From Sphingorhabdus sp. EL138 (GTDB lineage: Bacteria > Pseudomonadota > Alphaproteobacteria > Sphingomonadales > Sphingomonadaceae), in contig NZ_CAMAYF010000008.1 of NCBI RefSeq assembly GCF_945862485.1, positions 16,952 to 80,951 of the forward strand: a stretch of 64,000 nt of DNA. The letters are read 5' to 3'. A program made the position numbers and the translations under genes. The notes beneath the pieces were generated by a model. The model was not told the origin of the DNA. It worked only from the letters and a program-made list of their open reading frames with translations, and searched no databases. Positions 27,505 to 28,408 of the stretch are shown piece by piece (position 1 is the stretch's first letter; each line of letters opens with the position of its first letter).

Positions 27505-28188
27505 CTAAGCAGATTCAAGACGGTAACCGTAACCGAAAACCGTGAAAATCCGGAAGCCGTTTTCGGGTCGCAATGCCAGTTTTGCTCGTACCCTCGAAAT
27601 ATGCATATCTAATGTGCGTGTCGCGAGTGTTGCCGTTGTACGCCAAATGGTTTGCATGATATAGTTACGCGACAATGTCCGGTCTGTGTTCTTGAAGAAC
27701 ATTTCTGCCAACTCAAATTCCTTGGCGGTCAATATTACGGTCTCTCCATGGATACTAACGCTCTGCTCAAGGCGGTTCATTTTGTAGGCGCCGTATGTGA
27801 CCTCTGTATCAAATGCGCCCGCTATCGCATTGCCGCGCAGCAAAGCGTTTATCCGCGCCGCAATAACATTACGGCTTTCTGGCTTCGTGATATAATCATC
27901 AGCGCCCGCATTTAAGGCGTCGGTAATATCCCGTTTAGCAGACCGGTTCGCCATCATGATAAACGGTGGCCGCGTGCGCAAAGTCTTATTCATCCATTCA
28001 AGCAGCGACGTGTCGTCGGCGGCGCGAATATTCCAATCTAAGATAACGAGGTCAAAAACCTCCCGCGACAATATTTCAGTAAAGGCATTGCTGTCGGTGC
28101 AACCCACGGCAATATACCCCAGGTCTTCAACTATCTGTTTCAAATAATCGACAACATCCAGGCCATGATCGGCAATAAATACTCTCAT
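27505..28188 (-). CDS. Orphan OmpR-family response regulator, degenerate receiver plus winged-helix DNA-binding domain
   Basis: LVILDWNI, DDYITKPE, winged-helix LTAKEFELAEMFFKNTDRTLSRNYI...RTLDMHISRVRAKL; no kinase adjacent. Confidence 0.85.
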   Translation of the reverse strand: MRVFIADHGLDVVDYLKQIVEDLGYIAVGCTDSNAFTEILSREVFDLVILDWNIRAADDTSLLEWMNKTLRTRPPFIMMANRSAKRDITDALNAGADDYITKPESRNVIAARINALLRGNAIAGAFDTEVTYGAYKMNRLEQSVSIHGETVILTAKEFELAEMFFKNTDRTLSRNYIMQTIWRTTATLATRTLDMHISRVRAKLALRPENGFRIFTVFGYGYRLESA

Positions 28189-28239
28189 AACAGGTCCACC
28201 CTTTAGCAAACCGCCGATAATTCGGCAATGAGATGTATC

Positions 28240-28303
28240 TTACGATATATTACTTAGTTACTAGATGATAGTAAAAGTTTTACTTATTTTTACATGCAGT
28301 TAC
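28240..28303. promoter_or_regulatory. AT-rich, 10-bp-phased TTAC direct-repeat array upstream of the orphan response regulator
   Basis: TTAC begins at 28240, 28250, 28280, 28290, 28300; additional perfect dyad AGTAAAA-G-TTTTACT at 28270..28284. Confidence 0.65.
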
Positions 28304-28333: not shown

Positions 28334-28408
28334 TGGCTGGGGCGGCAGGGATCGAACCTGCGAATGGCGGCATCAAAAGCCGCTGCCTTACCGCTTGGCG
28401 ACGCCCCA
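28334..28408 (-). tRNA. tRNA-Gln (anticodon TTG), CCA encoded
   Basis: Reverse complement TGGGGCGTCGCCAAGCGGTAAGGCAGCGGCTTTTGATGCCGC...GGTTCGATCCCTGCCGCCCCAGCCA. Confidence 0.95.

Follow-up and report, generated by a model that had tools for sequence, protein, structure and literature searches.

The window, by which we mean the whole 64-kb stretch of Sphingorhabdus sp. EL138 DNA analysed here, carries on its minus strand a gene for an OmpR/PhoB-type response regulator of 227 aa with a degenerate (pseudo-)receiver (27505..28188, ATG at 28188). The tRNA-Gln(TTG) gene (28334..28408, minus strand) lies directly upstream on the same strand and is a conserved neighbour in the genus; it was absent from the initial annotation of this DNA. 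Between the two genes is a gap of 145 bp that holds an array of TTAC repeats. This intergenic stretch has a GC content of 33% versus ~55% in its surroundings, in agreement with the AT-rich strip in a GC-richer chromosome that had been described.

The regulator (P0001) matches the Response_reg and Trans_reg_C profiles, both above the gathering cut-off, which places it in the OmpR/PhoB type, and no kinase domain was found among its ten profiled neighbours. Thus the earlier description of an orphan winged-helix regulator holds. The profiled neighbours are cytochrome bc1 subunits, a class-II DAHP synthase, a class-IV aminotransferase, MarR, phosphoribosyl-ATP pyrophosphohydrolase, HIT, permease and MFS proteins, and the only HATPase match inside the window lies ~17.6 kb from the regulator. 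P0001 misses the cut-off of every named equivalog model shown by a wide margin, the best being PhoB with 126.6 of 296.2 bits. Against the CpxR equivalog model it reached 74.5 bits (cut-off 341), and we rejected it as a CpxR orthologue. CenR was likewise rejected, since the motif conserved at this locus (see below) is GTAA-N6-GTAA and not TGA-N8-TGA, and a published study found no CenK/CenR homologue in Sphingomonadales (PMC9275681). The papers searched contained no description of this regulator.

A 10-bp register of TTAC units

TTAC starts at 28240, 28250, 28258, 28280, 28290 and 28300, each exactly where the initial annotation had placed it. Five of these starts (28240, 28250, 28280, 28290 and 28300) fall in one 10-bp register, with 28258 out of register. 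Five copies are the top count in a register for any 4-mer in the 64 kb, the next best being three. We shuffled the 148-bp intergenic stretch 3000 times with dinucleotide composition preserved, counting TTAC and all 4-mers at periods 8-12. The five-copy TTAC register was reached in 0/3000 shuffles and no 4-mer reached a five-copy register either, indicating that the phasing is real. Because the regulator gene is on the minus strand, the functional reading of the TTAC unit is GTAA.

A GTAA pair is conserved upstream of the regulator gene

Orthologues were gathered from the genus, from named genomes and by region, and their upstream sequences were then extracted, resulting in 69 distinct orthologues from Sphingorhabdus, Parasphingorhabdus and Blastomonas. 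A contig end hides the locus in one genome (G033), which is therefore no evidence of an absence. GTAA-N6-GTAA is found within 260 bp upstream of the ATG in 65 of the 69 orthologues, and GTAA pairs at other spacings from 0 to 15 are found in 0-6 of them. The box ranks first among all 4-mers at spacings 0-11 in the 69 upstream sequences, and mononucleotide shuffles of these sequences give a mean of 0.2 boxes per 69, with a maximum of 2. The eight GTAA positions of the 65 aligned cores are invariant by construction, and the spacer and flanks vary; a T precedes the first and the second GTAA in 61 and 53 of the 65 cores, respectively, and an A follows the first GTAA in 59/65.

There are four exceptions. 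L035 and L037 have one mismatch in the second half-site, and L102 (44% identity) has no box. L013 retains the box ~350 bp upstream (G006:C1:1460702), where it was apparently pushed away from the gene by inserted sequence. Elsewhere in the order, 11 homologues with 38-57% identity were examined in other genera; 6 of them have the exact box and 2 more have it with one mismatch. Thus alignment of orthologous upstream regions, proposed as a check in the initial annotation, clearly finds conservation of the phased GTAA pair upstream of the regulator's own gene, as expected of an autoregulatory operator. In the same 69 orthologues the recognition-helix region RTLDMHxSRxR is almost invariant, and in all of them Glu replaces Phe after the KP motif.

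Two irregular loci were seen among these sequences. The L013 locus (G006:C1, 1460702-1461053) has ~250 bp of extra sequence between box and regulator gene, with an inverted pair (TGAACTTGTTTCAGGGTCC and its partner) that looks like an interspersed repeat. In L042 / L103 (G039:C1:105078-105700) the regulator orthologue matches in two overlapping pieces with a stop, reflecting either a broken gene or an assembly error.

We considered whether the AT-rich stretch serves to end or process the tRNA-Gln transcript, the repeats being a by-product of composition. Its position directly 3' of tRNA-Gln on the same strand would suit such a signal, as would the dyad AGTAAAA-G-TTTTACT, which is present at 28270-28284 as annotated. 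However, this dyad is not conserved in the alignment of the window's clade (seven species, support 100/99), no terminator-like site was found in the stretch, and its single-strand fold is unremarkable (z -1.27). Furthermore, the box persists where the 260 bp upstream contain no tRNA-Gln end (e.g. L066, L071, L094), as well as in L013 at its distance from the gene. A tRNA signal is therefore largely excluded, and we assign it a negligible probability. An Rfam search gave no match besides the tRNA, and a sigma-70 scan gave one site, on the wrong strand and at a chance-level count.

Parts of the putative operator region

The conserved pair is made of core half-site 1 (GTAA, 28290..28293, minus strand) and core half-site 2 (GTAA, 28280..28283, minus strand), 10 bp apart, and is present in 7/7 clade species. 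A third in-phase GTAA (28300..28303, minus strand) is a clade-specific addition carried by 5/7 clade species, and is also seen in L032 outside the clade. The GTAA at 28250..28253 (minus strand) is part of a clade-conserved block and occurs in 7/7 species, and that at 28240..28243 (minus strand) is private to the window species (1/7), the others reading CGTTAG. The initial annotation regarded the 28258 copy as an extra TTAC filling a gap. This GTAA (28258..28261, minus strand; 5/7 clade species) instead corresponds to a CTGGTAA element that occurs genus-wide, 22-24 bp downstream of core half-site 2, and outside the clade the same position holds the common CTGGTAA or CTGGCAA element, at 22-24 bp from the core. 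Hence the pair at 28290 and 28280 is conserved, but the five-member array is not conserved as a unit.

These differences bear on the register itself, whose exactness over five copies may be partly coincidence, arising from a conserved pair plus independent drift. The private copy at 28240, the absence of 28300 from 2/7 clade species and the out-of-register 28258 point in this direction, whereas the pair and the added third copy (5/7 clade species, L032) keep the 10-bp step; we put the odds of such a coincidence at about even. It qualifies the reading of the array as the regulator's own operator and does not replace it.

The clade alignment also displays a near-invariant promoter block, ATCTAGTAACTAAGTAATATATCGT(T/A)AGATAC (28235..28266, minus strand), which may be the promoter core or, alternatively, may be a further operator. 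This block (ATCTAGTAACTAAGTAATATATCGTTAGATAC) holds an imperfect inverted repeat (ATCTA..AAC / GTTAGAT), broken in the window species by GTAAGAT. The presumed 5' leader contains a small GCCG...CGGC hairpin (28213..28226, minus strand) shortly before the ribosome-binding site, and similar GCCG/CGGC-type hairpins were seen, by eye only, in most of 18 relatives.

Other candidate targets in the genomes

A genome scan for a regulon had also been suggested. Run as TGTAA-N5-TGTAA in 45 genomes, it gave no clear excess over the reversed control, and consequently the binder's regulon cannot identify the binder. A regulon defined by pattern was rejected; the matches that recur most often (TGTAAGTGRTTGTAA and others) are within coding sequence. 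Using a sequence-only core model, the site at the regulator's own gene is the best match in 24/45 genomes and ranks third in its own genome, a ranking that is partly circular because the model was trained on these sites. The nearest well-scoring sites elsewhere are mostly in coding sequence.

The best candidate for a second target is ihfB. Its upstream region carries a box, TGTAAAGCATTGTAA, at G000:C16:36591-36605 (L132:1501-1515), ~59 bp before the ihfB ATG, with GTAA fixed and the interior variable. This box is present in 10/10 clade genomes read, including G040, and in 0/20 other genomes of the genus. In the clade member G039, which keeps the ihfB box, the regulator gene matches as two pieces and contains a stop; this is weak evidence against ihfB as a target, or else reflects a recent loss or an error in sequencing. 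Independently of the clade-specific box, a GTTGTAA...TCTG(G/C)CA element occurs in most ihfB upstream regions of the genus (L149-L178).

The remaining promoter candidate besides ihfB belongs to an accessory redox cluster with a FAD/cyclic-nucleotide-binding oxidoreductase, found in 6/45 genomes. GTAA-N6-GTAA lies near the start in 6/6 of these, with a third phased copy in most. In G000, three phased GTAA (C19:21346-21369) are upstream of a FAD/cyclic-nucleotide-binding/ferredoxin-like oxidoreductase, and a second GTAA pair (C19:22579-22593) is 1.2 kb away in the same cluster (L146, L186). The cluster also has multihaem-cytochrome-like, CHAT-like and adenylate-cyclase-like ORFs, named by reading and not by profile.

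Identical conservation of the box would be expected if another conserved regulator bound it. The pair could thus be the site of a different factor, another OmpR-type regulator, that controls the gene while the adjacent regulator itself does not bind. Several other OmpR-type regulators are encoded in these genomes, boxes similar to GTAA are used by unrelated regulators such as CpxR (PMC5063474), and none of the ORFs read in the G000:C19 redox cluster, where three phased GTAA stand, is a regulator of this family. However, the box accompanies the regulator gene from genus to genus, including cases of differing synteny, and shows no enrichment in the rest of the genome, whereas the shared box of a broad regulator should recur. 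We consider binding by a different factor quite improbable and favour binding by the adjacent regulator.

The window's clade carries a probable pseudo-receiver

Receiver residues were compared against PhoB and 68 orthologues. The window protein has lost DD2 (D8 to H) and T (T80 to A) and keeps DD1 (D7), D51 and K102. Throughout the clade comparison D7, D51 and K102 are retained, the second acidic residue D8 is H, Y or N, and the threonine T80 is A; in addition, the Pro at D+4 is changed (P55 to R or S), and most members have also lost G59, the Gly at D+8. In a recent review, loss of one or more active-site residues defines a pseudo-receiver, and the same D+4 and D+8 changes are named (PMC12632262). 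On the tree T80A requires three changes, and in L075 (Parasphingorhabdus) D8 and T80 were lost separately. Full-length dN/dS is ~0.05-0.21, with L008 excluded as unreliable due to an uncorrected indel, and is mostly lower in the effector domain than in the receiver. These values are well below 1, indicating that the gene is under purifying selection.

On the basis of these sequence comparisons we put forward, as new, that the clade regulator is likely to be a pseudo-receiver protein maintained by purifying selection, with an added third box. Since its receiver has lost pocket residues, its activity probably depends on how much protein is present or on another signal and not on ordinary phosphorylation, although the retained D51 and K102 make residual phosphorylation chemistry possible. 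According to the same review (PMC12632262), it is still an open question how pseudo-receivers are switched on and off.

A model for the operator and its relation to known systems

We assign a probability of roughly 0.8 to the reading that the array is an operator of the regulator's own promoter, bound by the adjacent OmpR/PhoB-type protein. The pair, its 10-bp spacing, its conservation and the protein family are observed directly, and from them we infer that the binder is the adjacent protein and that binding would regulate its gene. The multi-site autoregulatory operator initially proposed thus stands as a conserved box at an OmpR/PhoB-type gene, with binding by the regulator predicted, and falls as a five-site array. 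Most likely, the adjacent regulator binds as a dimer to the head-to-tail GTAA-N6-GTAA (28293-28280, minus strand) on one face of the helix and would thereby control transcription of its own gene, by activation or repression. In the clade, the third phased copy (28300) would offer a place for a further subunit, and the 28258 and 28250 copies may extend the site towards the transcription start. The pair lies ~105 bp before the ATG, with CTGGTAA 22-24 bp later, an arrangement that would fit overlap with the -35 region.

Operators built from direct repeats are well known for OmpR/PhoB regulators, and the box is therefore ordinary in kind. ChxR of Chlamydia trachomatis, an atypical OmpR/PhoB receiver, recognises head-to-tail direct repeats with several sites in its own promoter (PMC3960148). 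The window regulator shares the atypical receiver and the head-to-tail repeats at its own promoter, but ChxR is without the phospho-accepting Asp, whereas the window protein keeps D51, and its repeat is TCGATCA-N5-TAGATAA instead of GTAA-N6-GTAA. The CpxR box of E. coli and Pseudomonas, GTAAA-(N4-8)-GTAAA (PMC5063474), resembles TGTAAA-N5-TGTAAA here in letters, but CpxR belongs to a kinase pair. Likewise, CenR, an OmpR-type regulator of Rhodobacter sphaeroides and other alphaproteobacteria, uses direct repeats at a 10-bp half-site distance and has a conserved site upstream of cenR (PMC9275681); this spacing equals that of the GTAA pair, but the CenR motif is TGA-N8-TGA. HP1043/HsrA of Helicobacter pylori is an atypical orphan whose binding sites include its own promoter and which recognises direct repeats separated by one turn (PMC5253667); it differs in that its repeats are TTTAAG, spaced by 11 bp, and in having many further direct targets.

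Within one genus, a phosphorylation-controlled regulator may have become a pseudo-receiver working by amount, while the same clade gained the third operator half-site and the box at the ihfB promoter. That loss of phospho-control and rewiring of targets went together is a tentative idea, which we consider doubtful. The co-occurrence amounts to one event per clade and may be coincidence, and L032 has the third phased copy together with a canonical receiver. Intact canonical sisters are available against which this idea can be compared.

The same operator can be traced both in a clade whose receiver has lost key residues and in dozens of species where the receiver is canonical. This operator set is useful because it allows direct comparison of sister proteins that have or lack the pocket residues, together with their promoters, making the window-clade regulator a useful test case for how such switches change. 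The change from receiver to pseudo-receiver within one genus, with the operator fixed for comparison, is the part that a specialist may use.
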